A DNA stretch of 64,000 bases from Solirubrum puertoriconensis. GTDB taxonomy: Bacteria; Bacteroidota; Bacteroidia; Cytophagales; Hymenobacteraceae. Within the stretch, counting starts at the first letter, position 1, and every line of letters starts with the position of its first letter. Below the pieces are notes generated by a model that was given only the letters and a program-made list of their open reading frames with translations, was not told the origin of the DNA and did no database searches. Positions 1 to 64,000 of the stretch are shown one piece after another. The stretch is taken from positions 744,001 through 808,000 of the forward strand of contig NZ_LNAL01000008.1 of the NCBI RefSeq assembly GCF_001483135.1, written 5' to 3'. The position numbers and the translations under genes were made by a program.

Positions 1-310
1 GGGTTGGCACTACAGCCATGCCCAGCAAGCCGCTTTCGCCGGTTTCGGTTACGTCGGCAATGGTTAGCAGCGGCGTTACCACGCCCGTAGCCGGGTCGAT
101 GCGGCTTACCCGGCCGCCGCGCTCCGTCATCCACAGAAAATTGTCGGGCCCCCAAAGCAGCTCCCACGGGGTATCGCGGCCGGTGGTAAGCGTAGAAACA
201 CTCACGGTGGTGTTGCCCACCTGGTAGCTGCCGGGCTGTGCATCGGCACTCCTAGGCGTGCAGTAGGCGCCCAATACTATCAGCAGAAAACATGCGGCGA
301 AACGTTTCAT
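1..310 (-). CDS. PQQ-dependent sugar dehydrogenase-like protein, N-terminal part (gene runs off the window)
   Basis: About 103 residues are visible; the rest lies beyond the left edge. The protein starts with a signal peptide (basic start, hydrophobic core at about residues 7-16, likely cleavage after SADA at residue 24), so it should act in the periplasm. The mature N-terminus carries the PWELLWGPD...LWMTERGGRVSRID pattern typical of the glucose/sorbosone dehydrogenase (GSDH) beta-propeller family, whose members oxidise sugars with PQQ as cofactor. Residues that bind PQQ and calcium lie in the missing part, so enzymatic activity cannot be judged. The start is the ATG at 310, the only one that keeps the signal peptide complete. 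A second member of this family, a lipoprotein, is at 21968-23311. Confidence 0.75.
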   Translation of the reverse strand, partial: MKRFAACFLLIVLGAYCTPRSADAQPGSYQVGNTTVSVSTLTTGRDTPWELLWGPDNFLWMTERGGRVSRIDPATGVVTPLLTIADVTETGESGLLGMAVVPT

Positions 311-437
311 ACGCAGGAGCTTAAGGGTAAACACTAACAGGAAAGAGCGAGCTTACAAGCATAACGGTTTTCTGGCCGCTTCGGATTGCTGATATTTCCG
401 ACAGTGCCGCCGCTATTTTGTTTCTTTCTTCCCCACC

Positions 438-2126
438 ATGAAAAAACTTTTTCCTTCTCTGCTCGGCGGCGCCGTCTGCTTTGTGGCCGGTGCCCTTACC
501 ATGCGCGCTACCGATGCACCTAGTGCCGTAACGGTGCCCATGTTACGAGCCGCCCAGGAGCTTATGGGCCTGCATTTTTCCGATGCACAGCTCGATTCGG
601 CCCGCCGCGAAGTGACTGATTCGCGAAGCAGCTACGAAGCCTTGCGCAAGCTGCCCATTCCGAATGGCGTAGCACCCACTACCGTGTTCGACCCGGTGCC
701 GCTGCGCCTGCGGCCCACCGGCATCGAGAAAATGCGCGTCGACCACGGCAAGCTGCCCAAAATGGGCAAAGTAACGCTGCCCTCTAACCGCGACGATCTG
801 GCTTTCTACACCGTGCGCCAGCTCGGCGAGCTGCTGCGTACCAAGCAAGTCAGCTCCGAAGAATTAACCAAGTTCTTTTTGGCGCGCCTGAAAAAGTACG
901 ACTCCAAGCTGCTGTGCGTAACCTCGCTCACCGAGGACCTAGCCCTGCAGCAAGCCCGCCAAGCCGACGATGAAATACGGCGCGGTAAGTACCGCGGGCC
1001 GCTACACGGGGTGCCGTTTGGCGTGAAGGACTTGTTCAGCACCAAGGGCTACAAAACCACTTGGGGTTCGGTGCCTTACAAAGACCAGACGCTCGATGAA
1101 GACGCCGCCGTGGTAACGCGCCTGCGCGACGCCGGCGGAGTGCTGTTAGCCAAATTTACCCTAGGCGAGCTGGCCATGGGCGACGTGTGGTACGGCGGCA
1201 TGACGCGCAGCCCCTGGGACATCAGCAAAGGCAGCAGCGGCTCGTCGGCTGGTTCGGCCTCGGCAGTGGCCGCTGGCTTGGTGCCCTACGCCATCGGTAC
1301 TGAAACCCTAGGTTCGATTGTAAGCCCGAGCACGGCCTGCGGCACCACTGGCCTGCGGCCGACTTACGGCCGTATAAGCCGCGCCGGCGCTATGGCTTTG
1401 AGCTGGTCGATGGACAAAGCCGGACCCATTACCCGCTCGGCCGAAGACTGCGCCCTGGTGTTTGCTGCTTTGGATGGCCTCGACAGCCGCGACGCGGCCA
1501 CCCTAACGGTGCCAAGCAACGTGTGGCCTTTCCGCTACGCTTTCGATACCGACCTCAAAAAGCTACGCATTGGCTACGTAAAAGCCGATTTCGACCGCAC
1601 GTACCCCACCAAAGCCAACGACCAGGCCGTGCTGGAAACCCTTCGTAAGCTGGGCGTGCAGCTGGTGGAAATTGAACTGCCGAAGCTGCCGGCCGGCGAC
1701 ATGACTTTCCTGCTCACGGCTGAAGGGGCCGCCGCTTTCGACGACCTCACCCGCTCGGGCCGCGACGCCTCCATGGTAAAGCAAGACCGCAATGCCTGGC
1801 CCAACCTGTTCCGGGCTTCGCGCTTTGTGCCGGCCGTGGAGTACATCCAAGCCCAACGTGCCCGCCGACTTCTGATCGAAGAATTGGATGCCCGCATCAA
1901 AGACCTCGACGGGTACGTGGCACCTTCGTTCAGCAGCAACCTGGTTATTACCAACCTCACCGGTCACCCGGCCGTGGTGGTGCCGAACGGCTTCCGGCCC
2001 GGCGGGCTTCCGAGTACCATCACCTTCACGGGACAGCTGTACCAAGAGGCCAAGCTACTTGCCCTGGCGAAGGCCTACCAGGATGCCACCGAGTTCGACG
2101 AAAAGCACCCGCCGCTAAACTTCTAG
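438..2126 (+). CDS. Exported amidase, amidase-signature family
   Basis: 562 residues. A hydrophobic N-terminal segment (residues 4-21) indicates export. The catalytic domain has the Ser-cisSer-Lys triad of the amidase signature family: Lys197 in GVPFGVKD, cis-Ser269 in GSSAGSASAVAAG, and nucleophile Ser293 in TETLGSIV, with the usual spacing of 24 residues between the two serines. Such enzymes hydrolyse amide bonds in carboxylic amides; the substrate cannot be told from sequence. A Glu-tRNA(Gln) amidotransferase subunit A role is unlikely because of the export signal and the long N-terminal extension. The gene is followed after six bases by an HD-hydrolase gene, so the two are probably co-transcribed. 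An imperfect -7 box (TATTTTG) lies at 414-420. Confidence 0.85.
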   Translation: MKKLFPSLLGGAVCFVAGALTMRATDAPSAVTVPMLRAAQELMGLHFSDAQLDSARREVTDSRSSYEALRKLPIPNGVAPTTVFDPVPLRLRPTGIEKMRVDHGKLPKMGKVTLPSNRDDLAFYTVRQLGELLRTKQVSSEELTKFFLARLKKYDSKLLCVTSLTEDLALQQARQADDEIRRGKYRGPLHGVPFGVKDLFSTKGYKTTWGSVPYKDQTLDEDAAVVTRLRDAGGVLLAKFTLGELAMGDVWYGGMTRSPWDISKGSSGSSAGSASAVAAGLVPYAIGTETLGSIVSPSTACGTTGLRPTYGRISRAGAMALSWSMDKAGPITRSAEDCALVFAALDGLDSRDAATLTVPSNVWPFRYAFDTDLKKLRIGYVKADFDRTYPTKANDQAVLETLRKLGVQLVEIELPKLPAGDMTFLLTAEGAAAFDDLTRSGRDASMVKQDRNAWPNLFRASRFVPAVEYIQAQRARRLLIEELDARIKDLDGYVAPSFSSNLVITNLTGHPAVVVPNGFRPGGLPSTITFTGQLYQEAKLLALAKAYQDATEFDEKHPPLNF

Positions 2127-2132
2127 CCCTAG

Positions 2133-2816
2133 GTGACAACTCCTGACCAACCCCAAGCAGCCTCGTTGGCCGCGCGCTGGCAACAAACGGTAGCTCCGCT
2201 GTTGCCCACCGCGGCCGGCGAGGCTGCCTGGCGTTATGTACTGGGTGCTTACGCCGGGCCCGATCGGCACTACCACGCGTTGGCACACCTCGCCACCATG
2301 TTTGCGGTGCTCGATGCGCACCCCGAAAAAGCCTCTGATGCGGCGGTGCTGGAGCTGGCCGTGTGGTTTCACGATGCTGTGTACGACTCCTTGCGCCACG
2401 ACAACGAAGCCCGCAGCGCCGAGGCGGCATTGCAGTACTTGCAAGGCAGCCGCCTGTCGGCCGAGCAGCTGGCCCGCCTCGATTACCTTATCCGGCGCAC
2501 CCAGCACCACGCCCGCACCGAGCCCAACGACGGCCTCGACACAGCCTTGCTGCTCGATGCCGACTTGTGGATCCTAGGTGCCGAACCCGCGCAATACGCT
2601 GCCTACGCCCGGCAAGTGCGGCAGGAGTACAACTTGGTACCCAAGCTGCTGTACCGGCCGGGCCGCGCCAAAGTGTTGCGCCACTTGCTCGAGGCGCCGC
2701 AGCTTTACCGCACCCGCTACGCGCAACAACAGCGCGACGCGGCCGCCCGGCGCAACCTCGCCGCCGAGCTGCAAGCTTGGGAAAACGGCCGCGGGCTTGA
2801 TGACCTAAGCGGGTAA
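2133..2816 (+). CDS. Predicted metal-dependent HD-superfamily hydrolase
   Basis: 227 residues from a GTG start at 2133, which is part of a CCTAGGTG copy just after the amidase stop. The protein has the pattern of a small HD-type phosphohydrolase family of unknown substrate: HYHALAH (His46, His48, His52), WFHDAVYD (His80-Asp81) and a later acidic helix with LLLDADLWILG. His and Asp in these positions normally bind one or two divalent metals. No signal peptide is present, so it should be cytoplasmic. Some databases label this family as an NMDA receptor subunit-like protein, which is misleading. Close spacing to the exported amidase suggests a shared transcript, but no functional link is obvious. 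Confidence 0.75.
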   Translation: MTTPDQPQAASLAARWQQTVAPLLPTAAGEAAWRYVLGAYAGPDRHYHALAHLATMFAVLDAHPEKASDAAVLELAVWFHDAVYDSLRHDNEARSAEAALQYLQGSRLSAEQLARLDYLIRRTQHHARTEPNDGLDTALLLDADLWILGAEPAQYAAYARQVRQEYNLVPKLLYRPGRAKVLRHLLEAPQLYRTRYAQQQRDAAARRNLAAELQAWENGRGLDDLSG

Positions 2817-2945
2817 ACTAAACTGCCCCTAGGTGCCGCAGCATGCTCCTTGCCGCAGGCTGGTTGCAACGGCGGCACCTAGGGCTTGTCTTTGGCGATG
2901 CGTAAGTTGCGCTTCTTCCTTTTTCCTCCCCCGAATACCATCGTT

Positions 2946-5417
2946 ATGCGTTTTTCTAGTGCGCTGCGGCTGCTGGCTTTGTGGCCGGTGGCGGCCGTGG
3001 CCCAAACTCCGCAGGCTGGTTCGCCGTTGGCGCCGCTTACCGTCGAGAAAATTATGCGCGAGCCGGCCCAATGGCTCGGCGGTCTGCCCTCGGCCCAGTA
3101 CTGGAGCGAAGACGGCAAGCGCATTTATTTTCAGTGGAACCCCGAGCGCGCCCGCCGCGACTCGCTTTACTACACCACGCCCGATGGCAAAGCCCCGCGT
3201 AAAGTAAGCCTGGCCGAGCAGCGCCAGCTGCCCACCACGCGCGGCGACTACGACGCCTCCCACACCCGCAAGGTGTACGAGAAGGACGGCGACATTTATT
3301 TGCTTGAGTTGAAATCGGGCAAAACGCGGCGCATCACCAATACCGCCGAGCGCGAGATGGAGCCCGAGTTTGCCCTGCAAGGCCGCGCCGTGAGCTACAC
3401 CCGCAACGGCAACCTGTTCACCTGGGACCCCGCTACCGGCGAAACCACCCAGCGCACCGATTTTCGGCGGGGGCAGCGGCCGCCCGGCCCTTCTACGGAT
3501 AAATCGGAGAAGTACCTGCGGGCGCAGCAGTTGGCTTTGTTTCAGGTGATAAAGCTGCGCGAGCAAGACCGCCAAGCCCGCGAGCGGCTGCAAAAGGCCC
3601 TGGCTAAGCTGCGGCCCAAGCCCATTTACCTAGGCAACCAAACCGTCGAGAACCTGCGCCTCTCGCCCGATGGCCGCTACGTAACCTACTCGCTGGTACA
3701 AGCCCCCACCAACGATAAGGTGGCCATTGTGCCGGCCTTCGTCACGGCTTCGGGCTTCACGGAGGACATCAACACCCGCAACAAGGTGGGCGCGCCGCAA
3801 ACGGCCTACGAGCTGGGTATCTACGACATCGGCCGCGACACCACCTTCGTGCTCGGCTACAAGGAGCTGAAGGGCCTCGACGAGCAGCCTGCCTACCGCA
3901 AAGAGTACGCCCTGAAGGCCAAAGCCCCCGTGCCTGCCGAAGGCGACAAAGCCACTAGCAAAGACAAACCTGCCACCGAGCTGCGCCGCGTAATACCGCA
4001 CGGGCCGTATTGGAACGACTCGGGCCAGCGCGCTTTCCTGGTGATGCGCTCCACCGACAACAAAGACCGATGGATTGTGTCGCTCGACCCCACCACGCAG
4101 AAAATTGCCTTGCTCGACCGCCAGCGCGACGAAGCCTGGATTAACGGACCGGGTATTGGCTACGAGGCCGGCAACGTAGGCTGGATGCCCGATGGCCGCC
4201 GCATGTATTTTCAGAGCGAAGAAACCGGCTACTCGCACCTGTATACCGTCGACGTTACTTCGGGCCAGAAGAAAGCCCTGACCAGCGGTAACTTCGAAGT
4301 GCAGCAAGCCAAGCTCAGCCGCGACAAGAAGACGTGGTACATCACGGCCAACAAGTCGCACCCCGGCGAGCAGCACTTCTACCGCATGCCAGCTGAGGGC
4401 GGGCCGCTCACGCAAATCACCACCCAAAGTGGTGCTCATGAGGTAGCCCTCTCGCCAGACGAGAAAACCCTGGCCGTGCGCTACAGCTTCTCCAACAAGC
4501 CCTGGGAACTGTACGTGATGGACAACAAGCCCGGCGCCAAAATGCGCCAGCTTACCCGCTCCACCACCCAGGAGTTCGAGAGCTACAAATGGCGCGAGCC
4601 GGAGGTGGTAACCTTTAAGGCCCGGGACGGCGCCAGGGTGCACGCCCGCCTGTACCGCCCCGCACAGCCCGATCCTACGCGGCCGGCCGTAATCTTTGTG
4701 CACGGCGCCGGCTATCTGCAGAACGCGCACAAGTGGTGGAGCACCTACTTCCGCGAGTACATGTTCCATAACCTGCTCGCCGACCGCGGCTACACCGTGC
4801 TCGATGTGGATTACCGCGGCTCGGCCGGCTACGGCCGCGACTGGCGCACCGGCATCTACCGTTACATGGGCGGCAAAGACCTCTCCGACCACGTTGATGG
4901 CGCCAAGCTGCTTGTTGAGAAGTACAACGTCGATCCGCAGCGCATTGGCATTTACGGCGGCTCCTATGGCGGCTTCATCACGCTGATGGCCATGTTTACG
5001 CAGCCCGAGGTGTTCAAGTCGGGTGCCGCCCTACGCTCCGTTACCGACTGGGCCCACTACAACCACGGCTACACCGACAACATCCTCAACGAGCCCTACA
5101 ACGACTCCATTGCCTACGCCCGCTCGTCGCCCATCAACTACGCCGAGGGCCTGAAAGGCAACCTGCTGATGTGCCACGGCATGGTTGATACCAACGTGCA
5201 CTTCCAGGACATCGTGCGCCTCACGCAGCGCCTCATCGAGCTTGGCAAGGATAACTGGGAGCTAGCCGTGTACCCCGTAGAAGACCACGGCTTCGTGGAG
5301 CCTTCATCCTGGACCGACGAGTACAAGCGCATCCTCAAGCTTTTCGAAACTACGCTGCGCAATCAGTCAGCTGCCGCGGCGGCTGGTACCGCTGTTGGTA
5401 GCAGCGGGGGCAAATAG
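2946..5417 (+). CDS. Exported S9-family serine peptidase (prolyl oligopeptidase/DPP IV type)
   Basis: 823 residues from the ATG at 2946, chosen because it begins a clean signal peptide ending near residue 20 (AVAQ); in-frame codons further upstream only add a poor N-terminus. Residues 30-570 form WD40-like/DPP IV beta-propeller repeats, seen as recurrent SPDGRYV, MPDGRRMYF and LSPDEKTL motifs. The C-terminal alpha/beta-hydrolase domain has the catalytic triad Ser673 (GGSYGG), Asp748 (MVDTNVHF) and His781 (EDHGF). Family members cleave dipeptides or small peptides after proline or related residues. It should act in the periplasm in peptide catabolism. The gene is followed by a long bidirectional terminator shared with the convergent gene on the other strand. 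Confidence 0.9.
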   Translation: MRFSSALRLLALWPVAAVAQTPQAGSPLAPLTVEKIMREPAQWLGGLPSAQYWSEDGKRIYFQWNPERARRDSLYYTTPDGKAPRKVSLAEQRQLPTTRGDYDASHTRKVYEKDGDIYLLELKSGKTRRITNTAEREMEPEFALQGRAVSYTRNGNLFTWDPATGETTQRTDFRRGQRPPGPSTDKSEKYLRAQQLALFQVIKLREQDRQARERLQKALAKLRPKPIYLGNQTVENLRLSPDGRYVTYSLVQAPTNDKVAIVPAFVTASGFTEDINTRNKVGAPQTAYELGIYDIGRDTTFVLGYKELKGLDEQPAYRKEYALKAKAPVPAEGDKATSKDKPATELRRVIPHGPYWNDSGQRAFLVMRSTDNKDRWIVSLDPTTQKIALLDRQRDEAWINGPGIGYEAGNVGWMPDGRRMYFQSEETGYSHLYTVDVTSGQKKALTSGNFEVQQAKLSRDKKTWYITANKSHPGEQHFYRMPAEGGPLTQITTQSGAHEVALSPDEKTLAVRYSFSNKPWELYVMDNKPGAKMRQLTRSTTQEFESYKWREPEVVTFKARDGARVHARLYRPAQPDPTRPAVIFVHGAGYLQNAHKWWSTYFREYMFHNLLADRGYTVLDVDYRGSAGYGRDWRTGIYRYMGGKDLSDHVDGAKLLVEKYNVDPQRIGIYGGSYGGFITLMAMFTQPEVFKSGAALRSVTDWAHYNHGYTDNILNEPYNDSIAYARSSPINYAEGLKGNLLMCHGMVDTNVHFQDIVRLTQRLIELGKDNWELAVYPVEDHGFVEPSSWTDEYKRILKLFETTLRNQSAAAAAGTAVGSSGGK

Positions 5418-5433
5418 CACCTAGGGATAAGCC

Positions 5434-5487
5434 TAACGAAGCAAAGCGGCCGCGCCCAATCTTGAGCGCGGCCGCTTTGCTTCGTTA
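5434..5487. terminator. Bidirectional terminator hairpin, 22-bp perfect arms
   Basis: Arms 5434-5455 and 5466-5487 are exact inverted repeats around a 10-base loop. The hairpin sits between the convergent S9 peptidase and beta-barrel genes. The arms include two NotI-like GCGGCCGC cores. There is no strong T-run on either side. Confidence 0.85.
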
Positions 5488-5513
5488 AGTTGGAAACGCT
5501 GTGTGGGAGTTGG

Positions 5514-6881
5514 TTACTCTTTGGCGTCGGTGTTGCGGTTAATCTGAACCGCGAGGCTCAGCGTCAGGCTGAGGGTGCGCGCTTTGTAATTGTAGCCGCT
5601 GCTGTAAGTCATGCCGGATTCCTGCGCCACCGAGCGCACTACCACGGGGTCGTAGTAGCCGCCTAGACCGTAGCGGCGGGCCTGGAGCATCAGCGTCAGG
5701 CGGTCTTGCCGCAGGCCCACCTCTAGGTACGGGAGGCGTGTGCTCTCGAAGCCGTACACTTCGTTGCGGCTAACCACGTTGCGTCCCCACGGCGTAGTTG
5801 TGTAGCGCAACTCGTTGGCCTCAAAACGCTGGAATGCGTCGGTCGAGAACAGCTGCAGCCCCGTGCCGGCCACCAGCTGAAACTGCGTACCTAGGGGGCG
5901 CAGGTAGCGTAGGCCAATCTCAATCGCCGTAAATGAGCCACGCCAATCAAGTGTGCCCTCGTAACCGCCCGCACGCAGCTCGGCCGTGCGTCCAAAGTTT
6001 GCCCGGCTGATGGCCGTGTGCAGCGCCAACTGCCGGCCCGGAAACAGCAAGTCAAAAAATACCCCTAGCTGTCCGTGTGGGCGGCCGTCGGCTTGCAGGC
6101 CGTCAAGTGTGGGTGGCTCCAGGCCAGGGCTATCGGCGAGGCGCAGGCGATGCGAATTGTAGCGCACGCCAAAGGTTGGTCCCACCACAACCCGGTACCG
6201 GCTGCGGTCCTTGGCAACAAAGTTGGTGCTGCCCGGCTGGCGTGTGGTTGAGCACTCGCGGTTATACAACTGCACAAGGTTGGTCAGTCCCGTTTCTGTA
6301 AAAGCGGTTTTGGGTAGTGCAGCCACCACGCTTGGGCACTCAAGGAAGTATAGCTCCAGCTGGCCGCGGTAGTTGTTGGCATCAACTACCTTGGTGATGC
6401 CGCCTTGGTTTTGGCGGTGCTTGCGTGGCACCAGCTCAATGTAGGGCCGCTGTTCGCGCTGCACAAAGTAGTGCTTCACGTTGCCGTCCTCAATCATCAG
6501 CAGCGAGGCCGCGCCCGTTACCAGCACATCGGCCAGCACTGTGTCGGGCCGTTGCTCAATCCTGAGCTGCTCGGGCATGCGCTTCAGGTCCGATGTCACG
6601 GTGTAGTCGATGGGCAACACCTCGCGCCGCAACAGACGCCCGCTCTCTAGGTGCACGCCACGCAGCTGCCGCGCCAGGTAGGTGGTAGGCGGCGTTTGAG
6701 CAGTAGGGCGGAAGCGGATGTCCTTGGGCGGCGCCGACCAGTAGTTGTTCTCTACCTCGCCGCGCAGCGTGTCGCCCGCTGCTAACACTACGTATCCTGG
6801 CTCGAATACCTGGGCTGATGCTTGTAAGGTACCGAGCAGCAGACCAAAACATAATAAAGCAATACGGGTAAAAAAACGCAT
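5514..6881 (-). CDS. Exported outer-membrane beta-barrel-like protein of unknown function
   Basis: 455 residues from the ATG at 6881, which starts a typical signal peptide (MRFFTRIALL, hydrophobic to about residue 20, ASAQ cleavage). An upstream in-frame extension would put charged residues before it and was not used. Residues 25-200 are rich in beta structure without a family I recognise. From about residue 215 to the end, alternating polar and hydrophobic strands (for example RYRVVVGPTFGVRY, LAVQINRN at the end) look like an outer-membrane beta-barrel of the porin/PorT-like type common in Bacteroidota. The gene is alone between two strong hairpins, so it is probably monocistronic. Function is unknown. 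Confidence 0.6.
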   Translation of the reverse strand: MRFFTRIALLCFGLLLGTLQASAQVFEPGYVVLAAGDTLRGEVENNYWSAPPKDIRFRPTAQTPPTTYLARQLRGVHLESGRLLRREVLPIDYTVTSDLKRMPEQLRIEQRPDTVLADVLVTGAASLLMIEDGNVKHYFVQREQRPYIELVPRKHRQNQGGITKVVDANNYRGQLELYFLECPSVVAALPKTAFTETGLTNLVQLYNRECSTTRQPGSTNFVAKDRSRYRVVVGPTFGVRYNSHRLRLADSPGLEPPTLDGLQADGRPHGQLGVFFDLLFPGRQLALHTAISRANFGRTAELRAGGYEGTLDWRGSFTAIEIGLRYLRPLGTQFQLVAGTGLQLFSTDAFQRFEANELRYTTTPWGRNVVSRNEVYGFESTRLPYLEVGLRQDRLTLMLQARRYGLGGYYDPVVVRSVAQESGMTYSSGYNYKARTLSLTLSLAVQINRNTDAKE

Positions 6882-6980
6882 AGAATCAGGGTTCAAAAAT
6901 CCTGTAAATCTATACACAGGGAATGTTCATTGCATTTAGTTTAAGCCATGGAATATGCCCTAGGTGCTAGTGCGAACGGT

Positions 6981-7032
6981 ACTAAGGCAGAGGGCCGGTG
7001 CAGCAACTGCTGCACCGGCCCTCTGCCTTAGT
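6981..7032. terminator. Long perfect hairpin, 25-bp arms
   Basis: Arms 6981-7005 and 7008-7032 are exact complements with only two bases between them. The hairpin lies just downstream of the PAP2 gene (minus strand) and upstream of the beta-barrel gene, so it most likely ends PAP2 transcription. Confidence 0.8.
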
Positions 7033-7042
7033 GTGGATCAAC

Positions 7043-7873
7043 CTACAGTCGCTTCGTCAACAACAAACCGCCGTAAGAGTAGCCATTTACATTAATACCT
7101 TGCATCGGCACCATCGATACACCACCCCGACGCTTTTTATGCAATTGCGGCACCAGTATACCCGAGGCCGCACCCACGGCATAGCCAACTAGGTTATCCG
7201 ACAAAAAGTGTTTGCCTGCTTTCAGACGCATGTAGCCCACAGCGGCCGGTATGGCCGCAGCCGCCGTCCACACGAAAGGCCGTGCCGCCGATTCAGGGTG
7301 GAAGTCGTGAAATACCTTGGCGAAGAAGAACGTGTTGGTGGCGGTGGCTGCCGTGTGGCCTGCAAAGAAGGAGTTGTTGGCGTTGTTGTTGCCGCGCTGG
7401 CTGAGCGTCAGCCTAGGGTCGTTGCTGTAGGCCAAGGGGCGGCTGCGTTCTACCGTAGCCGTGGAGAGCGTAAACAGCGCGCCTGTAAGCGAAATAGCCT
7501 CTAGGTACAGCACGCCAACCTGGCCTGCTTTGTCGCGCACCTTCGAGTCGGCCAATATCAGAGCAGCGGGTGCTGCAAAAGAGCCATAAAAAGGATAGTC
7601 GCTGGCCTTTTTTACGTCGGGGTTATAGTAGCCCGCCGCAAAACGGTCGAAGCCATTAACGTCTTCGCGGCGCAGGCCTAAAACTTCGCCATCGGTTAGG
7701 CCTTCGCCGTTTTGTGCTTTATCGAAGGCTAAGCCAGTAGCCAGCAACAAGCCGCCAACGATGGGGCCGTCGACGTAGATGCTGGTTTGGTAAGGAGTGC
7801 GGTATTGAGCCTGTGCAGCCAGTGGAAGCAAGCCACTCAGCAACAGGGCTGCACGGAGCATAAGCATTTTCAT
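7043..7873 (-). CDS. Exported PAP2-family phosphatase
   Basis: 276 residues from the ATG at 7873, the first start that yields a signal peptide (hydrophobic residues 7-20, AQAQ cleavage near 22). The three parts of the PAP2 acid-phosphatase signature are present: VERSRPLAY (Arg-Pro at 145-146), SFFAGHTAA (His173, replacing the usual PSGH) and YMRLKAGKHFLSD (Arg216, His222, Asp226). The two histidines and the arginines form the vanadium-haloperoxidase-like active site that removes phosphate from lipids or polyprenyl pyrophosphates. Several hydrophobic helices fit a membrane or periplasmic location. A role in undecaprenyl pyrophosphate recycling or lipid A trimming is possible but not shown. Confidence 0.8.
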   Translation of the reverse strand: MKMLMLRAALLLSGLLPLAAQAQYRTPYQTSIYVDGPIVGGLLLATGLAFDKAQNGEGLTDGEVLGLRREDVNGFDRFAAGYYNPDVKKASDYPFYGSFAAPAALILADSKVRDKAGQVGVLYLEAISLTGALFTLSTATVERSRPLAYSNDPRLTLSQRGNNNANNSFFAGHTAATATNTFFFAKVFHDFHPESAARPFVWTAAAAIPAAVGYMRLKAGKHFLSDNLVGYAVGAASGILVPQLHKKRRGGVSMVPMQGINVNGYSYGGLLLTKRL

Positions 7874-8037
7874 GGTAGGAGGAAAGAAGAAACAGGAATG
7901 TTGTTGCTCCCTGAAACGCAGCCTCAGCCGTAGGGTTGGCCCATGGCTTTGCGCTGGATTTCTCTGCTGGCAATCGGAGATGTAATCGCCGTTGCCGCTT
8001 TCCAGCGGCCGAACCGATGTGCTTTCCTGATTTTCGG

Positions 8038-8045
8038 TAGCTTTG
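8038..8045 (+). promoter_or_regulatory. Probable promoter of metK (-7 box)
   Basis: TAGCTTTG matches the Bacteroidota -7 consensus TAnnTTTG exactly. No good TTG -33 element is visible about 20 bases upstream. It predicts a leader of about 70 bases before the metK ATG at 8124 and rules out the in-frame ATG at 8043 as the start. Confidence 0.55.
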
Positions 8046-8048
8046 CGG

Positions 8049-8109
8049 CCCACCTGTGGGTTGCTCTGCCGGGGCTTCTCCGCGGGTTTTAGGTTTCACC
8101 GAAGCCGGC
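8049..8109 (+). promoter_or_regulatory. Structured 5' leader of metK (two hairpins)
   Basis: A small hairpin (CCCAC/GTGGG, 8049-8060) is followed by a larger stem pairing 8068-8078 with 8101-8109 (nine pairs, two-base bulge, 22-base loop), which ends 14 bases before the metK ATG. I see no match to the core of the known SAM-I or SAM-II riboswitches. Regulation by SAM is only a hypothesis. Confidence 0.3.
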
Positions 8110-8123
8110 ACTATCTCAGCGCA

Positions 8124-9386
8124 ATGCCATATCTGTTTACCTCTGAATCCGTCTCGGAGGGCCACCCCGACAAAGTAGCCGACCAGATTTCCGACGCCAT
8201 CCTGGACGAATTTCTGCGGCAGGACCCTTCCTCCAAAGTCGCCTGCGAAACACTTGTTACCACCGGTCTGGTAGTCGTAGCTGGTGAAGTAAAATCGAAA
8301 GCTTACGTCGATGTGCAAGGCGTAGCTCGCGAGGTTATTCGCCGCATTGGCTACACCAAAGCCGAGTACAAGTTCGAGGCCGAGTCGTGCGGCATTTTGT
8401 CGGCGCTGCACGAGCAGTCGCCCGATATCAACCAAGGCGTAGAGCGCCAGAACCCCGAAGACCAAGGCGCCGGCGACCAAGGCATGATGTTCGGCTACGC
8501 CACGCGCGAAACCGACAACTACATGCCGTTGGCGCTCGATTTGTCGCACCGTTTATTGCGCGAGCTGTCGGCCATTCGCAAAGAAGGCCGCCAGATGACG
8601 TACCTGCGCCCCGACGCCAAGTCGCAGGTAACCATCCGCTACTCCGACGACAACACGCCCGAAGCCATCGACACCATCGTGGTTTCGACGCAGCATGATG
8701 ACTTCGATGCTTCGGAAGAAACCATGCTCCGCCGTATTTCGGAGGATGTTAAAGGTATCCTAATTCCGCGCGTAAAGGCCCAGCTCAGCGCCGAGGTGCA
8801 GCAGCTCTTCACAGATGAAATCACCTACCACATCAATCCCACTGGCAAATTTGTAATCGGCGGCCCCCACGGCGACTCAGGCCTCACCGGCCGTAAGATC
8901 ATCGTGGATACCTACGGTGGCAAAGGAGCCCACGGCGGCGGTGCTTTCTCGGGCAAAGACTCTTCGAAAGTAGATCGCTCGGCCGCTTACGCTGCCCGGC
9001 ACATCGCCAAAAACTTGGTTGCCGCCGGCGTGGCCGACCAAGTGCTGGTGCAAGTAGCTTACGCTATTGGCGTAGCGAAGCCCGTAGGCCTGTACGTAAC
9101 CACCTACGGCACCACCAAGGCCACCGATGGCAATGGCCAGCAACTCACCGATGGGCAAATTGCCGAGAAGGTGCAGCAGCTGTTTGACATGCGCCCGTAC
9201 GCCATTGTACAACGCTTTGGCTTGCAGAACCCCATTTTCGGCGAAACCGCCGCTTACGGCCACATGGGCCGCGAGTCGCAGACTAAGCAAGTATCCTTGC
9301 CAAACAACGAAACCCGCCAAGTAGAAACCTTTACTTGGGAAAAGCTCGATTACGTCGATCAGATCAAGCAAGCCTTCAATCTGTAA
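8124..9386 (+). CDS. metK: S-adenosylmethionine synthetase
   Basis: 420 residues from the ATG at 8124 ([17 protein letters not shown]). The enzyme makes S-adenosylmethionine from methionine and ATP in the cytoplasm. Family motifs are complete: [13 protein letters not shown] with His14, [12 protein letters not shown], the DSGLTGRKI loop, and a variant of the glycine-rich P-loop ([12 protein letters not shown]) followed by [11 protein letters not shown]. Length matches the family. Together with ahcY at 54484-55794 it covers two steps of the methyl cycle; methionine synthase is not in the window. The gene has its own promoter and leader, and it ends at a 68-base perfect palindrome shared with convergent hpf. 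Confidence 0.97.
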
Positions 9387-9391
9387 TTGGC

Positions 9392-9459
9392 CCTAGGTGC
9401 CATAAAACAGGAGGCCCTGCCGCAGCTGCGGCAGGGCCTCCTGTTTTATGGCACCTAGG
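9392..9459. terminator. 68-base perfect palindrome, bidirectional terminator, bounded by CCTAGG
   Basis: 9392-9425 and 9426-9459 are exact reverse complements over 34 bases with no spacer. Both outer ends are CCTAGG. It lies between the convergent metK and hpf genes and includes an A-rich/T-rich pair that could give a U-run in either direction. Confidence 0.85.
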
Positions 9460-9462
9460 AAG

Positions 9463-9762
9463 TTAGTGCGCCGTTTGCTTTTCCTTGTGGCGTATCAACT
9501 GTTTCTTCAATTGCTCCGCTGCCGAGTCGGCGGCGGCTTCAAAGCTCGAAGCGTTTTCCTGACTGAATAGGGTAGTACCCGGTACGAATAGCTTGATTTC
9601 AACAGTTTTATTGTCGACGCCGTCGTTGTTGTTCAGGCGCATGATAACCTCGCCTTCTGTTACGCGGTCGTAAAACGTTTCGAGCTTATCGAGGCGCTTC
9701 TGGATGAAGTCGAGCAACTTTTGATCGGCGGTGAAGTGCACCGATTGCATCTGTACTTTCAT
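9463..9762 (-). CDS. hpf: Ribosome hibernation-promoting factor (short HPF/RaiA family)
   Basis: 99 residues from the ATG at 9762 (MKVQMQSVHFTADQKL). The protein has the beta-alpha-beta-beta-beta-alpha fold pattern of the sigma-54 modulation/S30AE family, with conserved VHFTAD, KLETFYDRV and the C-terminal SFEAAADSAAEQLKKQL helix followed by a basic tail. These proteins bind the decoding region of the 30S subunit in stationary phase. There is no C-terminal dimerisation domain, so this is the short form. The gene follows xerC by 34 bases on the same strand with no promoter visible between, so the two are likely co-transcribed. Longer in-frame upstream starts would overlap xerC and were not used. 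Confidence 0.92.
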   Translation of the reverse strand: MKVQMQSVHFTADQKLLDFIQKRLDKLETFYDRVTEGEVIMRLNNNDGVDNKTVEIKLFVPGTTLFSQENASSFEAAADSAAEQLKKQLIRHKEKQTAH

Positions 9763-9796
9763 CGGTTGTAGGGTTTTGGGGTAAGACAAAGGGAAT

Positions 9797-10684
9797 TCAG
9801 GCCTTTGGGTGGGCCTTTTCAAACACAGCTTTCAATTTGTCGATACTCAGGTGCGTGTACACCTGCGTAGCAGCTAGGTTGGCGTGCCCAAGCAACTCCT
9901 TAATGGCGTTCAAATCGGCCCCTTTGCCCAGCAAGTGCGTAGCAAAGGAGTGGCGCAACACGTGGGGGTGCTGCTGCCCGGGTGCCGAGGTAATTTGCCC
10001 TAGGTAATGCTTTACGGTACGGTACACCAGCTGCGGATAGAGCGGCTTGCCTTTATCCGTAACGAGGAGGGACGCAGTGGCGTTGCCCGCGCTGCCAAAC
10101 TCGCTGGTTTTGCGTGCGATATAATTTTCGAGCACGCCGATAAGCGACGGATTAAGCGGAACCACGCGCTGCTTGTTGCCTTTGCCCGTAACGCGTACCG
10201 TGCGTGCCGGTAAGCTCACGTCGTGATGCTCAATGCCAATTAGTTCGGAAAGGCGAATGCCCGTGCCGTACAGCATTTCCAGCATCAGCTGATCACGTGC
10301 GCCTGCAAACGAATCTTCGAACTGAAACGAATCGAGCAGTTGATTTAACGATTGCTCGGGCACGAAGTCGGGCAGCTTCTTGTTTGTTTTGGGCGGCGTA
10401 ATGCGCAACATGGGGTTGCGAGCAACGTGCCCAGTGCGCAGCAAGAATTTATAGAAGGAGCGCAAGCAGGCAATTTTCCGATTCACCGTACGCGGGTCGC
10501 GCTGCTGCTCCATAAGCGTCACAATCCAGGAGCGAATCAGGGTATGATCGGCCGTGGCTGCGTCCTGCACCTCGTAGGTGTGCAGCAGGTAATCCTGAAA
10601 CTGCCGTAAATCCGTTTGGTACGACAGCACAGTGTGCGGCGAGTAGCGACGCTCGAAGCGTAGGTAATCAAAAAATGCTTCCAT
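9797..10684 (-). CDS. xerC: Tyrosine recombinase, XerC/XerD type
   Basis: 295 residues from the ATG at 10684 (MEAFFDYLRFERRYSPHT). Residues 1-95 form the SAM-like core-binding domain and 105-295 the catalytic domain. All active-site residues are present: Arg144 (GTGIRLSEL), Lys168 (GKGNKQR), His241 and Arg244 (HVLRH), His267 (LLGHANL) and the nucleophile Tyr276 (QVYTHL). The length and intact core fit the housekeeping Xer enzymes that resolve chromosome dimers at dif, rather than a phage integrase. No dif site was recognised here. The gene lies between rpsU and hpf, a translation-related neighbourhood found in related genomes. Whether it is XerC or XerD cannot be decided from the sequence alone. 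Confidence 0.9.
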   Translation of the reverse strand: MEAFFDYLRFERRYSPHTVLSYQTDLRQFQDYLLHTYEVQDAATADHTLIRSWIVTLMEQQRDPRTVNRKIACLRSFYKFLLRTGHVARNPMLRITPPKTNKKLPDFVPEQSLNQLLDSFQFEDSFAGARDQLMLEMLYGTGIRLSELIGIEHHDVSLPARTVRVTGKGNKQRVVPLNPSLIGVLENYIARKTSEFGSAGNATASLLVTDKGKPLYPQLVYRTVKHYLGQITSAPGQQHPHVLRHSFATHLLGKGADLNAIKELLGHANLAATQVYTHLSIDKLKAVFEKAHPKA

Positions 10685-34555: not shown

Positions 34556-36134
34556 TCACGACCACCAACAGCCGACCGGCAGCCTGGAGGAGTTGTTCCG
34601 CCAGAAGTTTGCCGAGGCCGAGCTTACGCCCCGCGCCGCCGTGTGGGAGCAGCTCGACCACGAATTGCTGGTGCGCGAAAACCAAGGCTACCGCAAGCGC
34701 CTGGTGGGCTACCGGCGCGCGGCCGCTGCCGCCGCGGTGCTGGCCGTGCTGGGCCTAGGTGGCTTATACACGCAGCACAACCTAGGAACTCATAATACCG
34801 CGAACAACGCTACCGCAACGGTATTTACGCAAGCGGGCCAGCAGGGCCTAGCCGATGCCACCGTGGCCAGTGCCAATAACAACCTAGGCGCCGCTAGCCA
34901 AGCTGCCGAAGCTACCGCTGCTGCCGGCAACTCGCGCCGCGCCCTAGGTGCTGCTACGGGTGCCAACACTGCGGCAGCCGGCCGCAACCTAGGCAACGCT
35001 GCTGCGGGCAGCGTTGCTATGCAAGCTGGTTCGGCGGCGCGCCGCGCTACGGCTTTGTTGGGCGATGCTGCCCCAAGCCGCAGCGCTGCTGGCCGTGCGT
35101 TGGCAGCCATTAAGCAAACATTTGGAGGCTCGGTAGAGGGCAGCCTGCAGGAGCCCGGCATGTTCCGGACGCGCAGTGTTGGCCCGAACAGCAGCAGCCG
35201 CACGGCCATTGCGCAAGCCCAAGCGCCAGCTGCGGGCAACGGCGGCAACTACGTGGCCAGCGAGCTGCAGCCCATGGCTACGCAACTGCGGCAAGCCGGC
35301 TTTGGCGGTAATCTGCTGAACCCCGATTCGATCAAGCGCGCTTTGCAGAGCGTGCCCGTGCAGCAAGCCGTAGCGCAAGCCGCTACCCGCGCCAACAACG
35401 AGCAGGATAAAGAGAAGGAAGCTACCCGGCCCAACCGTTGGCGCTGGCGCAGTGGCTACTCGGCCGAGCGCTACGTGCCCAACGTAAGCAGCCCCACCGG
35501 CGAAGGGCTGGCCTTGCACAAAGCCGCCGCCCCGCTCACCAACTTTATGGCCCCGCCGCCTGCGCCCACCAAACTGCAGCCCGGTTTGGCCCAGCGCGGC
35601 CACCTAGGCGGAGCCATTAGCTTGGATAATAAGCACTGGACGCTGCTCACCGGCGTGGAGCTGACCTCCATCTCTGGCGAAACCATGCGCGAAACGCCGC
35701 GTCAGTACCAGTCGTACTACCCTGGCGCCGACCGCTCCAACCAAGCGCAGCAAGAGGGCCGCTACCGCATGACCACCGCCGGCGTACCCGTGCAGCTGCG
35801 CTACCAGGGTCGCAAGCCCGGTGTATCGGTGTATGCTGCGGTAGGTGCCGCCGTAAACGTGCTGCTGCGCAACCGCACTACCGTGGGCGAGCAAACCGCC
35901 AACAACGACGGCTCTTACCGCCGGCTGCTGGCCTCGGCGCGCGGCAGCGCTGGCTTGCGCTACGCACCGGCCGGCGGCAACTGGCAGGTGCTCCTGGGTC
36001 CGGAAGCCGAAGCCGGCCTGAGCACTCTCAATACCAACCCCGGCGGCCAGTGGAGCGAGCGTACGCGCCCCTATGCGGTAGGCCTCTCGGCCAGCGTAGA
36101 ATTTGGCGGCGGCAAAGTAGCTTTACAACCCTAG
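34536..36134 (+). CDS. Predicted envelope-spanning anti-sigma-like protein with C-terminal beta-barrel-like domain
   Basis: 532 residues from the ATG at 34536, overlapping the sigma gene by 20 bases. Residues 1-58 are a hydrophilic cytoplasmic domain (SLEELFRQKFAEAELTPRAAVWEQLDHEL) of the type that follows ECF sigma genes in Bacteroidota. A single membrane helix spans 61-79. Residues 80-340 are an Ala/Asn/Gly-rich, probably disordered region, rich in CCTAGG-encoded Leu-Gly pairs. From about 345 to the end the sequence looks like an outer-membrane beta-barrel/PorT-like domain (HWTLLTGVELTSI, GVPVQLRYQGRKPGVSVYAAVGAAV, VGLSASVEFGGG). The layout would let one chain link inner and outer membranes. 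Direct binding to the sigma factor is inferred. Confidence 0.6.
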   Translation: MTPVSNNHDHQQPTGSLEELFRQKFAEAELTPRAAVWEQLDHELLVRENQGYRKRLVGYRRAAAAAAVLAVLGLGGLYTQHNLGTHNTANNATATVFTQAGQQGLADATVASANNNLGAASQAAEATAAAGNSRRALGAATGANTAAAGRNLGNAAAGSVAMQAGSAARRATALLGDAAPSRSAAGRALAAIKQTFGGSVEGSLQEPGMFRTRSVGPNSSSRTAIAQAQAPAAGNGGNYVASELQPMATQLRQAGFGGNLLNPDSIKRALQSVPVQQAVAQAATRANNEQDKEKEATRPNRWRWRSGYSAERYVPNVSSPTGEGLALHKAAAPLTNFMAPPPAPTKLQPGLAQRGHLGGAISLDNKHWTLLTGVELTSISGETMRETPRQYQSYYPGADRSNQAQQEGRYRMTTAGVPVQLRYQGRKPGVSVYAAVGAAVNVLLRNRTTVGEQTANNDGSYRRLLASARGSAGLRYAPAGGNWQVLLGPEAEAGLSTLNTNPGGQWSERTRPYAVGLSASVEFGGGKVALQP

Positions 36135-38981: not shown

Positions 38982-39509
38982 TCAGGCTTGCTGAATGGCT
39001 TTTCGCACGATTTCCTCGGCTCGTTTGTGGCCGCTGCGCCTTGTTACCTTAAACTGCCAGCCCTTTACTTGGTTGTAAGCCACAAAGAAGTGCTCGATTT
39101 CGCGCATTAGCTGCTCCGGTAAGTCGCTCACATCCGTTACATCGCTGTGCATGCGCGACTCAGCAGCTACGGCCAGGAGCCGGTCGTTGCGCTCGGTAGC
39201 TTTGTTGGTTTCTGTCTGCTCGGCTTCGAGCACCCCAATCACGCGGGCTTCTACCACGCAGCCCGGAAACGTAGGCGCGTCCATTAGCAGCAGCACATCG
39301 AGTGGGTCGCCGTCGTCGGCGAGGGTAGAGGGCACGAAGCCGAAATCGTATGGGAAGAAGCTGCCTTCGGGCAGCACCCCTTTTAATTTAAACAAGCCCA
39401 GATGTGGGTCGAAGGCTAGCTTATTGCGGCTGCCCTTGACGGTTTCGATAACTACGTGCAGATGCTTGGTACCGGGGGCGTACGTCGGAAGTTGATTGGG
39501 ATTGGGCAT
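38982..39509 (-). CDS. ppa: Inorganic pyrophosphatase
   Basis: 175 residues from the ATG at 39509 (MPNPNQLPTYAPG). It hydrolyses pyrophosphate to phosphate and pulls biosynthetic reactions forward. The type I family signature DDGDPLDVLLL with the metal-binding aspartates is present, as are KGSRNKLAFDPHLGLFKLKGVLPEGSFFPYDFGFVPST and the C-terminal HFFVAYNQVKGW. The enzyme is the soluble, magnesium-dependent type. It leads a two-gene unit with the DUF421 membrane protein and is divergent from a small secreted protein. Confidence 0.95.
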   Translation of the reverse strand: MPNPNQLPTYAPGTKHLHVVIETVKGSRNKLAFDPHLGLFKLKGVLPEGSFFPYDFGFVPSTLADDGDPLDVLLLMDAPTFPGCVVEARVIGVLEAEQTETNKATERNDRLLAVAAESRMHSDVTDVSDLPEQLMREIEHFFVAYNQVKGWQFKVTRRSGHKRAEEIVRKAIQQA

Positions 39510-39585
39510 AAAGCGGACTAGAATAGAAGAAGTTATACACCGCCTGAAAGCCAGATGTTGCCTGCACACCTCACATCATCATGCG

Positions 39586-39616
39586 TTGGCGGAAGCTATT
39601 TGGGGCGATAATTTTG
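39586..39616 (+). promoter_or_regulatory. Promoter of the small secreted protein gene (TTG-N20-TAATTTTG)
   Basis: -33 TTG at 39586-39588 and -7 TAATTTTG at 39609-39616, 20 bases apart, 30 bases before the ATG at 39646. Full match to the Bacteroidota consensus. Confidence 0.75.
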
Positions 39617-39645
39617 AGCACTCTCAACTTTACCGCCACCATGCC

Positions 39646-40053
39646 ATGCGCAACCATCGTTTTCTTCGCCTGCTGCCCTTGCTGCTTTTGTTGGTGCTAC
39701 CGCTGTTGCCCCAGCGCACCCTCGCGCAGGGAAAAGCAGCAGGCTATCAGTATATGCAAATGACCACTATTGAGTCTATCGTGGCCGGTGGGCTGGGCCG
39801 GTCGCGGGTGCTGTTTACGCCCGAGTTCAAAGGCACCAAAGAAGCCCAGATGGAAAACCTATTCAGCCTCACGGGTATCAACATCGGCAACGTCAAGACC
39901 AATGAAGAAACCATCCTGCGCTACCTGAGCGAAGTGACGGAGGATGGCTGGGAACTGTTTCAGGTAACGCCGCTTACGCAAACCCTGCAGAACACCGGCA
40001 CCACCGGCCAGGGTATTTTCCTCACGCGCTACACCTTCCGGAAAGCTAAGTAG
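39646..40053 (+). CDS. Small secreted protein of unknown function
   Basis: 135 residues from the ATG at 39646, which begins a leucine-rich signal peptide (MRNHRFLRLLPLLLLLVLPLLPQRTLAQG, cleavage near 28). The mature part (about 107 residues) has a GYQYMQMTTIESIVAGGLGRSRVLFTPE start and a DGWELFQVTPLTQ segment, like the small DUF4177-type domain with a conserved Trp, but the match is weak. It has a strong promoter and a long terminator, so it is probably well expressed as a single gene. Earlier in-frame starts precede the promoter and were rejected. Confidence 0.7.
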   Translation: MRNHRFLRLLPLLLLLVLPLLPQRTLAQGKAAGYQYMQMTTIESIVAGGLGRSRVLFTPEFKGTKEAQMENLFSLTGINIGNVKTNEETILRYLSEVTEDGWELFQVTPLTQTLQNTGTTGQGIFLTRYTFRKAK

Positions 40054-40063: not shown

Positions 40064-40123
40064 TCCTGCCCCTAACAACGACGCCCTAGGTAGTTACCTA
40101 GGGCGTCGTTGTTAGGGGCAGGA
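40064..40123. terminator. Long perfect hairpin with two CCTAGG copies at its apex
   Basis: Arms 40064-40092 and 40095-40123 are exact complements (29 bp) around GT. The apex contains two CCTAGG copies facing each other. It separates two convergent genes. Confidence 0.85.
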
Positions 40124-40131: not shown

Positions 40132-40911
40132 TCAGTGCTGCTGTTGGTCGCGGAGCTGCTGGAGCCGCGCATAGGTTTGGCGGGCGTGGGCGTACTGCCG
40201 CTCCACTTCGGCACCCAGGGCACCTAGAAGCGCAGGCTCGCGCAGGGCTTTTTCGTAAGCTTTCAGGGCCCACTCTTCGCCGTAAATGTTGTCCTCCAGA
40301 ATAGCCTTCTCGTCGTGGCCGGTGAGGGTAGCTTTGGCTTTCATCCAGCCCCGGTACAGCTTGCCTTTGTGCGTGGTGCCATGTTCGTATTCGGCGGCTT
40401 TATCGCGCAGGTAGGTGTTCAAGCGAGTGGCAAATTCGTGGCTTTTGCCGGCTAACTCGTGGTAGTAGCTGCGGAGTTCGGCGTCGCGGCTTTCGTGGTG
40501 TGCACGCCGGTAGCCATCAACGCGGTCGTTCACGAACAATAGCAACTCGTGCAGGGCCTTGGCCTGTTTGCGGCTGCGCTTTTGCACCCGACTGGTTGCC
40601 TTGGCTTTGCCGCCCCCGCGTAGCAGCAGCCAACCACCTAGGGCCAGGGCCCCACCGGCAAGCAGCTTTTGCGTGGTGGTTAGTTGACGCCAAGTATCGC
40701 TTGATGTCTTCGAGGCCTGGCGGATCGTATCCTGAATGTTGCTTGCATTGCCGCTTTTCAGCAGGTTGGTTGCCTTGTTTCGCCATGGCTGCCCAGCAGT
40801 TGCTTCTTGACCCGAATTGCTTTGCGAAGTACCTAGGGAAGAGGTGCCTTGGTTAGCAACTGGCTGGTTAGCAGCGTCGTCTGGCAAACGGTTATCGGTA
40901 GGCTGATTCAT
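40132..40911 (-). CDS. PA2169-family four-helix-bundle protein (DUF2383)
   Basis: 259 residues. The N-terminal 65 residues are Asn/Gln/Ser-rich and disordered. A short hydrophobic, Gly-rich stretch (LLAGGALALGGWLLLRGGGKAKA, about 83-105) may insert in a membrane. The C-terminal half is the ferritin-like DUF2383 domain: ALHELLLFVNDRVDGYRRAHHES, ELRSYYHELAGKSHEFATRLNTYLRDKAAEYEHGTTHKGKLYRGWMKAKA, NIYGEEWALKAYEKAL. Family members are often induced by stress and appear beside CsbD-like or GlsB proteins. Function is unknown. Confidence 0.82.
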   Translation of the reverse strand: MNQPTDNRLPDDAANQPVANQGTSSLGTSQSNSGQEATAGQPWRNKATNLLKSGNASNIQDTIRQASKTSSDTWRQLTTTQKLLAGGALALGGWLLLRGGGKAKATSRVQKRSRKQAKALHELLLFVNDRVDGYRRAHHESRDAELRSYYHELAGKSHEFATRLNTYLRDKAAEYEHGTTHKGKLYRGWMKAKATLTGHDEKAILEDNIYGEEWALKAYEKALREPALLGALGAEVERQYAHARQTYARLQQLRDQQQH

Positions 40912-57167: not shown

Positions 57168-57303
57168 GAGGGCCATATGGGTAACAATGCAGCAATATAG
57201 CTGCGTGCGAGGGCCGCAAGACAAGCCGCTAATCCAATTACTCGACTCGAGCCCAAACGCTTGCTAAGCACTAGCAAAGCAATACCCGATATTTGCGGGC
57301 AAT

Positions 57304-59105: not shown

Positions 59106-59115
59106 CTTTGGGTTG

Positions 59116-60411: not shown

Positions 60412-60477
60412 GCCCTTCCTTTCGTTACATTTATTCCGCGGCACTACCGCCGTGCGCTTGCCCGAATACTCCCTTTT

Positions 60478-61128: not shown

Positions 61129-61170
61129 GTACATTTAACTTCCTCCCTCCACCACATTACCTTCCCCGTT

Positions 61171-61461: not shown

Positions 61462-61470
61462 TTTTGCCCC

Positions 61471-62642: not shown

Positions 62643-62707
62643 GTGATGAAAACAGAAAGGCCCGGTTACATCTGTAACCGGGCCTTTCTGTTTTCATCAC
62701 CTAGGAG
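62636..62707. terminator. Long perfect hairpin, 35-bp arms, bounded by CCTAGG
   Basis: Arms 62636-62670 and 62673-62707 are exact complements around TC. Both ends hold CCTAGG, and the left arm contains the nadD stop codon. It separates convergent nadD and frr. Confidence 0.88.
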
Positions 62708-62708
62708 C

Positions 62709-63272: not shown

Positions 63273-63311
63273 TTCTGAAAAATTAAATGTTAAAAGTTGA
63301 GTGCTTAAATG

Positions 63312-63335
63312 GGGCGGCTACAAACGTAGCTGCCC
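63312..63335 (-). terminator. Hairpin between pyrH and frr
   Basis: GGGCGGCTAC (63312-63321) pairs with GTAGCTGCCC (63326-63335), ten pairs with one G.U, loop AAAC. No T-run follows on the minus strand, so it may be a weak attenuator or an mRNA processing or stabilising element in the pyrH-frr transcript. Confidence 0.4.
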
Positions 63336-63338
63336 TGT

Positions 63339-64000
63339 TCAGGCTTGCTCTGCTTGCGTACTAGAAGCTTGCTTTAAATCGGGTGCTAGGCTGGGCTCAA
63401 CGTCGGCATCGGGAGTTGGGGTGCCACTCATGGTCACCAGCGTGCCTACGGTTTCGCCTTGCACTAACTTAAGCAGGTTGCCCTCTTTGTTCATGTCGAA
63501 CACAATAATGGGCAAATTATTCTCCTTGCAGAGCGTGAAGGCCGTCATGTCCATCACGTTAAGGTTCTTCTCCATTACCTCATCGAAGGTAATCTGCGGG
63601 AAGCGGGTGGCCGATGGGTCTTTCTCTGGATCGGCGGTATAAATGCCGTCAACCCGAGTGCCCTTAAGCACCACATCCGCTTCTACCTCAATAGCCCGCA
63701 ACGATGCGGCCGAATCGGTGGTAAAGTAGGGCGAGCCAATGCCCGCGCCAAAAATTACCACGCGGCCTTTCTCGAGGTGGCGCAATGCTCGGCGGCGGAT
63801 ATAAGGTTCGCACACGCGCTGAATGGTAACTCCCGAAAGCAGACGCGTTGGAATGCCCAGCTTCTCTAGAGCGCTTTGCAGCGCCATCGAGTTGATAACG
63901 GTAGCCAGCATACCCATGTAGTCGCCCTGTACGCGGTCGAGGCCAAAAGCTTCGGCCTGTACGCCGCGAAAGATGTTGCCGCCGCCAATTACCACGGCTA
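63339..64000 (-). CDS. pyrH: UMP kinase, C-terminal part (gene runs off the window)
   Basis: About 220 residues are visible, lacking the first codons. UMP kinase phosphorylates UMP to UDP and is allosterically controlled. The visible part has [89 protein letters not shown] and [22 protein letters not shown], all characteristic of bacterial PyrH. After the usual end the protein carries an extra tail of about 30 polar residues ([13 protein letters not shown]...), which most PyrH proteins lack. It leads into frr on the same strand. Confidence 0.95.

Follow-up and report, generated by a model that had tools for sequence, protein, structure and literature searches.

Oriented, lineage-specific iterated words in Hymenobacteraceae genomes resemble dialects of DNA uptake sequences

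The genome of Solirubrum puertoriconensis (Bacteroidota, Hymenobacteraceae; assembly GCF_001483135.1) carries thousands of copies of a short word built on CCTAGG, one of several such words that are each characteristic of a lineage of the family and whose pattern is most reminiscent of the 'self' tags by which some bacteria recognise the DNA of their own kind. The starting material was a stretch of 64,000 bp of contig NZ_LNAL01000008.1 (positions 744,001 to 808,000 of the forward strand), hereafter the window, in which an earlier note had described CCTAGG as a highly iterated palindrome (HIP) similar to the HIP1 of cyanobacteria. We tentatively interpret the words as dialects of an uptake-sequence type that spread because DNA exchange favours certain sequences, as in the Neisseriaceae and Pasteurellaceae, an interpretation to which we would give somewhat less than an even chance.

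The window holds 98 copies of CCTAGG, spread throughout at about one per 653 bp, compared with a mean of 14.25 and a maximum of 26 in 100 dinucleotide shuffles, and with Markov expectations of 14.4 (order 1) and 13.2 (order 2); the maximal-order Markov figure of 75.9 is uninformative because its sub-words lie within the motif itself. No other 6-base palindrome of the window comes close to this excess. CTAG occurs 182 times, with 84 copies outside CCTAGG, whereas the shuffles yield 216 CTAG in all. Both the 95-100 copies estimated by eye in the earlier note and its remark that CTAG is otherwise scarce are therefore borne out. The excess also survived the count of the whole genome (4,804,721 bases), where 6,212 copies of CCTAGG, about one per 773 bp, compare with 136 copies of the reversed control word GGATCC. 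Among eight genomes of the genus, three (the source genome included) contain 5,325-6,212 copies and five contain 123-249, the word being 33-63 fold commoner per Mb in the source genome than in these five low-count congeners.

The iterated word is thus genome-wide, as the earlier note had it, but it is not simply a palindrome: the CCTAGG core is palindromic, the full unit of the source genome is not. The sequence ACCTAGG was read on one strand only at 88 of the 98 sites of the window, on both strands at two and on neither at eight, which resolves the set as follows.

1..64000, both strands: 43 ACCTAGGV on the + strand, 45 on the - strand, 2 equal to ACCTAGGT and 8 without either flank

Similarly, in 400 kb sampled from the sister genome G004, ACCTAGG stands on one strand at 505 of 564 sites, on both at 13 and on neither at 46. 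Across the source genome and its two sisters, G004 and G007, which together make up clade A, the oriented unit reads (C)ACCTAGG(G/C)(C), and in the source genome the real unit is the oriented ACCTAGGV (extended form GCACCTAGGGC). In 184 kb of clade A there are 253 copies of ACCTAGG, as opposed to 7 in 280 kb from congeners without the motif, and its one-step neighbour ACCTGGG, which carries the usual CTG-GG, is depleted (26 copies against 98).

Orthologues of the window were taken from seven congeners and projected onto it. The sisters, 86-88% identical over alignable sequence, keep CCTAGG at 61 of 82 (G004) and 57 of 80 (G007) alignable positions, whereas the motif-free congeners (~75% nucleotide identity) keep it at only 1/31 to 1/59. 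Over the 88 orientable sites, identity per column is 0.84-0.99 in the core and 0.72-0.93 in the flanks, the advantage over flanking bases that the earlier note had proposed to look for. Because some other palindromes are well kept too (GTGCAC 13/17, CCATGG 11/16), perhaps on account of the residues that they encode, the CTA codon is the better control: inside the motif it is kept in 45 of 55 (G004) and 37 of 51 (G007) cases, and outside it in 18 of 107 and 17 of 111. The three species of clade A have 47 of 99 sites in common, in comparison with 291 of 1,709 for the pooled control palindromes; some sites are unique to one species and others are missing from one only. Coding copies follow the description of the earlier note, mostly Leu CTA followed by Gly GGN, with CTA chosen far less otherwise: 155 of 185 in clade A lie in the CTA-GGN frame, and in the context xxC-Leu-GGx Leu is written as CTA in 63 of 90 cases and elsewhere in 158 of 2,044, the five motif-free congeners using it in 0-6% of cases in that context. 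The Leu-Gly dipeptide itself is slightly raised, with observed/expected ratios of 1.20, 1.03 and 1.06 in carriers and 0.83-1.01 in non-carriers. When the same positions were read in motif-free relatives, 215 comparisons gave five identical words and 63, 60, 53, 29 and 5 words with one, two, three, four and five mismatches, so that a series of point changes probably lies behind many of the copies.

The same kind of element, with other words, recurs through the family. CCTAGG was counted in 204 genomes, and 20-140 kb was sampled from each genome with more than 2,000 copies. There are 12 such genomes, three of which really carry a TAGGCCA dialect, CCTAGG in clade B being largely an overlap product of the TAGGCCA word. 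The dialects read as follows.

Clade A: ACCTAGGV, in the source genome (G000), G004 and G007
Clade B: (C/G)TAGGCCA(C/G)T, in G041, G043 and G137, and also in G129 (1,209 CCTAGG)
Clade C: ACCTAG(G/C)T, in G030, G036 and G123
Clade D: CCCTAGGG in G072, with mixed CCTAGG words in G088 and G104
CCTACCCC dialect: samples of Hymenobacter citatus, H. sp. UV11, H. sediminis and H. ginkgonis
Pontibacter dialect: AGGTATAG or AAGTATAA, in nine Pontibacter loci

Whole-genome counts, with forward and reverse forms summed, confirm three of these words. TAGGCCAS reaches 4,482-7,059 copies in four of the 204 genomes (next highest 910), and CCTACCCC 1,019-5,122 in 14 (next highest 536). A(A/G)GTATA(A/G) reaches 3,000-10,400 in 36 of the 50 genomes of genus g6 and 731-2,508 in the remaining 14, with at most 1,523 in the 154 genomes outside the genus. 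By the cut-offs used, the high-count carriers of one word are 9 + 4 + 36 + 14 = 63 genomes, and none of the 204 carries two independent words at high count. The TAGGCCA, CCTACCCC and AGTATAA words are clearly non-palindromic. In a tree of uvrB (one gene, 22 genomes), clades A, C and D are each split off from the rest by a branch of 100% support, so that these dialects follow phylogeny; clade B is split off too, with weak support and with the low-count G061 nearby.

Some genomes fall between carriers and non-carriers. Intermediate CCTAGG counts (574-888) occur in G118, G136, G134, G061 and G067; in the uvrB tree four of these lie close to clade B, and the five could be decaying or starting dialects. 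In genus g6, the word of the genus reaches no more than 731-1,068 copies in G161, G183, G187 and G189, which offer a natural contrast set in which a putative recognising gene might be traced.

The words are denser between open reading frames (ORFs; longest non-overlapping frames of at least 100 aa, so that the intergenic fraction includes some small genes) than inside them, with 3.25 against 1.07 per kb in clade A, 3.53 against 1.09 in clade B, 3.97 against 1.93 in clade C, and 1.83 against 1.43 and 3.17 against 2.20 in two Pontibacter groups. Their spacing is near random, or slightly even: no 5-kb bin of 36 is empty in clade A (variance/mean 0.81), and each of 20 stretches of 20 kb of G004 contains 22-38 copies (variance/mean ~0.5). 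Strand polarity was assessed in such sets of 20 stretches of 20 kb, taken along one chromosome each of G004 (clade A) and G129 (clade B), and none was found: copies divide 255/250 and 217/215 by strand, and 263/242 (p 0.37) and 231/201 (p 0.16) by G-rich and C-rich strand, respectively, without heterogeneity between stretches (p 0.37 and p 0.54). The CCTACCCC dialect gave 38:47 by strand, in four loci only. Mobile DNA was poor in copies in the two cases sampled. A plasmid-like contig of 12.5 kb in the source genome (L166 1-12518), with ORFs for a type IV coupling protein and a DUF5712 protein and a PF01555 methyltransferase beside a SmaI-family nuclease, has 2 CCTAGG where 16.2 are expected, and an island of 20 kb in G137 (L205), on which a C5 methyltransferase and a Vsr are encoded, contains 2 TAGGCCA in place of the typical 30.

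Close intergenic pairs, with starts less than 60 bp apart, are inverted in 12 of 12 cases in clade A (three overlapping; the three species are related, and the cases are not independent) and in 28 of 35 in clade B (16 overlapping). In agreement with the earlier note, which placed copies in spacers, in genes and in RNA structures, the window contains at least one strong hairpin (40067..40120: -51.8 kcal/mol, z -13.1 against 200 shuffles), and a spacer resembling 2828..2883 also bears a motif pair in both G004 and G007. The local features of the window are these.

2828..2883: inverted motif pair in the spacer between ORFs 2133-2816 and 2886-5417
34754..34993, + strand: cluster of five CCTAGG copies in 240 bp, inside ORF 34404-36134
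40067..40120: perfect hairpin with a 25-bp stem, built around the inverted motif pair 40085-40090 and 40097-40102
39496-40053 (+ strand) and 40132-40911 (- strand): convergent ORFs flanking the hairpin

Altogether, the words are exclusive, lineage-specific and mostly oriented; they recur about once per kb, show no polarity in clades A and B, are under coding constraint and are scarce in the mobile DNA sampled, which leads us to place an uptake-like drive first. In Neisseriaceae and Pasteurellaceae, words of this kind are attributed to a molecular drive that arises from sequence-biased exchange of DNA (PMC3630211, PMC1939737). In such a mechanism, cells of a lineage would preferentially take up or recombine DNA bearing their own word, and each exchange would tend to swap a word-less allele for a word-bearing one. 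Copies would then accumulate by point changes where proteins tolerate them, in spacers and at Leu-Gly written as CTA-GGN, until gain balanced loss, and the words of the clades would have drifted apart into dialects because the recognising protein changed. Uptake or recombination as the favouring force, acting through a putative recognising protein, is what we infer from these patterns. The DNA uptake sequences of Neisseriaceae and the uptake signal sequences of Pasteurellaceae share with the words described here a length of 7-11 bases, a density of about one per kb, an orientation, the lack of replication polarity (clades A and B), clade dialects that follow the species tree, a higher density between genes and rarity in one plasmid and one island, and perhaps also inverted pairs in hairpins (clades A and B). 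For the Neisseriaceae, such inverted pairs and hairpins are described in PMC3630211. The present words differ from both in their phylum, in carriers without PF00482, in a shorter strict core, in one largely palindromic dialect and in the lack of gene-end bias.

Several results weigh against an uptake-like drive. PF00482, the marker used for type IV pili and type II secretion, was found in four of the 204 genomes and in no carrier (other pilus families were not searched), which led us to reject a type IV pilus as the uptake machine on this marker. ComEC is present in 203 of the 204, carriers and non-carriers alike, and is thus no distinguishing gene; the DNA channel of the inner membrane is therefore general, and the known pilus apparently missing. 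No bias towards gene ends was detected (Kolmogorov-Smirnov p 0.53 in clade A and 0.11-0.89 in five other groups), whereas the Pasteurellaceae sequences do show one (PMC2346458). Dialect C is largely palindromic, with ACCTAGGT making up 87 of 157 CCTAGG in G030, and recalls HIPs more than uptake sequences. The Pontibacter word leans locally to one strand (40:88) in four loci of one region (L076, L094, L097, L102) and is uneven across five stretches of G173 (p 0.007), yet balanced there by skew (74:70), and close intergenic pairs in Pontibacter loci are inverted in only 0 of 9 and 5 of 13 cases. Moreover, stretches of the window without a counterpart in motif-free congeners are not poorer in copies, and the motif flanks are no better conserved than average in alignments with the sister species. 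Our searches, all of them in the open-licence literature, found nothing on uptake or transformation in these bacteria.

If DNA is taken up in a sequence-biased way by carriers that lack PF00482, the receptor would need to be of another, new type, known pilin receptors being unlikely. In this line, competence of Riemerella, also a member of the Bacteroidota, needs ComEC, DprA, ComF and RecA together with four proteins unlike known transformation machinery (PMC8459023), which leaves room in the phylum for another route of uptake. It is a serious, if still doubtful, possibility that the Hymenobacteraceae have independently evolved a third DNA-uptake-sequence system, the first in Bacteroidota, working without a type IV pilus through a putative surface DNA receptor and with at least five words in one family.

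An alternative that we regard as unlikely is that the words are a by-product of the HIP type. In Elhai's model the word is the target of an orphan methyltransferase, near-misses are gradually converted to it by methyl-directed mismatch repair, and alternate HIPs are linked to matching methyltransferases (PMC4390886). Like the cyanobacterial HIPs, the present words form a very dense iteration of about one per kb with a palindromic CCTAGG core in three clades, sporadic alternatives in relatives and an unsettled function (PMC4390886), and some one-step forms of the source word (among them ACCTAAG and ACCTAGC) are commoner than in motif-free congeners. However, the raised near-miss words include changes other than C-to-T, and the words are oriented, as in clade A, or plainly non-palindromic, as with TAGGCCA, CCTACCCC and AGTATAA. 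Of the enzymes suggested in the earlier note, the families searched did not fit either. Vsr (PF03852) occurs in 89 of the 204 genomes but in only three of the 12 with more than 2,000 CCTAGG, nine of these, the source genome included, giving no match; as a shared cause it was rejected. Among 13 genomes (these 12 and G129), C5 methyltransferases (PF00145) are present in four and N6/N4 methyltransferases (PF01555) in five, and five of the 13, or four of the 12, have neither. No methyltransferase of these two families is therefore common to the carriers, where other families (e.g., PF02384, PF02086, PF07669) were not searched for, and a cognate C5 or N6/N4 enzyme as the shared cause is not supported. 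The sole PF01555 enzyme found in the source genome is the one on the small plasmid-like contig, where it adjoins the SmaI-family nuclease. None of the genes tested separates carriers from the remaining genomes.

It is also improbable, in our estimate, that the words are sites of a sequence-specific chromosome protein, serving nucleoid organisation, segregation or repair and kept by selection for an even spread. The slightly even distribution in clade A, without empty bins and with a variance below the mean, would suit such a protein, as would the strong conservation at synonymous sites. Against it, both the presence of a word and the word itself vary among species of one genus, and such frequent replacement of thousands of sites is hard to reconcile with a binding protein on which the cell depends; the low counts on the plasmid and the island would also be unexplained unless both are young.

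Polar signals of recombination or translocation, namely Chi or the FtsK-orienting polar sequences (KOPS), are likewise short, GC-rich, genome-wide and species-specific. The KOPS of E. coli is GGGNAGGG, which the CCTACCCC dialect (GGGGTAGGG) resembles, and sites of this type are strand-polarised along the replication arm. The G-rich and C-rich strands are shared almost equally in clades A and B and in the five stretches of G173, and dialect C is largely a palindrome. The local lean of the Pontibacter word could reflect either polarity or descent of the sites from a common ancestor. In clades A and B the lack of polarity along the chromosome disfavours this explanation, which we consider very improbable for the words in general.

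An ordinary effect of codon choice at Leu-Gly or of GC content, although most clade-A coding copies are CTA-GGN, is refuted by the threefold higher density outside ORFs in clade A and by the congeners, which use CTA at 0-6% in the same context and have a far rarer CCTAGG, and it retains practically no credence.

No paper joining CCTAGG with Hymenobacter, or these words with uptake dialects, was found, nor were such words among the matches listed for Hymenobacter or Pontibacter with uptake or competence, for uptake sequences in Bacteroidetes or for Hymenobacter methylomes. The main text of Elhai's HIP paper names neither CCTAGG nor Hymenobacter (PMC4390886). If the uptake-like interpretation holds, finding word dialects in a different phylum would indicate that this kind of tagging arises repeatedly and can do without type IV pili. 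Related species with and without the word would then make the long-standing question of why such words spread, HIP1 among them, genetically testable. It could also aid the transformation of bacteria that are hard to manipulate.

Other words were met during the survey. GGGCCCC stands at 3-5 times its expectation in H. caeli (L069) and H. coccineus (L092) and may be a further iterated word, and AGACTCG(C) in Rufibacter immobilis (L088) and CCTCTGCG in Hymenobacter sp. IS2118 (L068) are raised in single samples of 22 kb, where further words or local repeats are both possible. In H. qilianensis (L051), words like AAAAGCCCCCCAG occur at about one per kb, 14 of 22 between ORFs; being mainly inter-ORF and resembling a standard terminator stem, they were set aside as a dialect word. 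Motif-free samples gave mainly codon-type words (CAGCAGC, CGACTAC), with weaker excesses of CAGGTCG and CAGGTAG. In most groups, motif discovery by expectation-maximisation converged on the periodicity of codons, and its output was left aside. Finally, the control word GGATCC has 0-20 copies in many genomes of genus g4 and 100-300 in others, a scarcity that suggests avoidance through a BamHI-like restriction in part of that genus.

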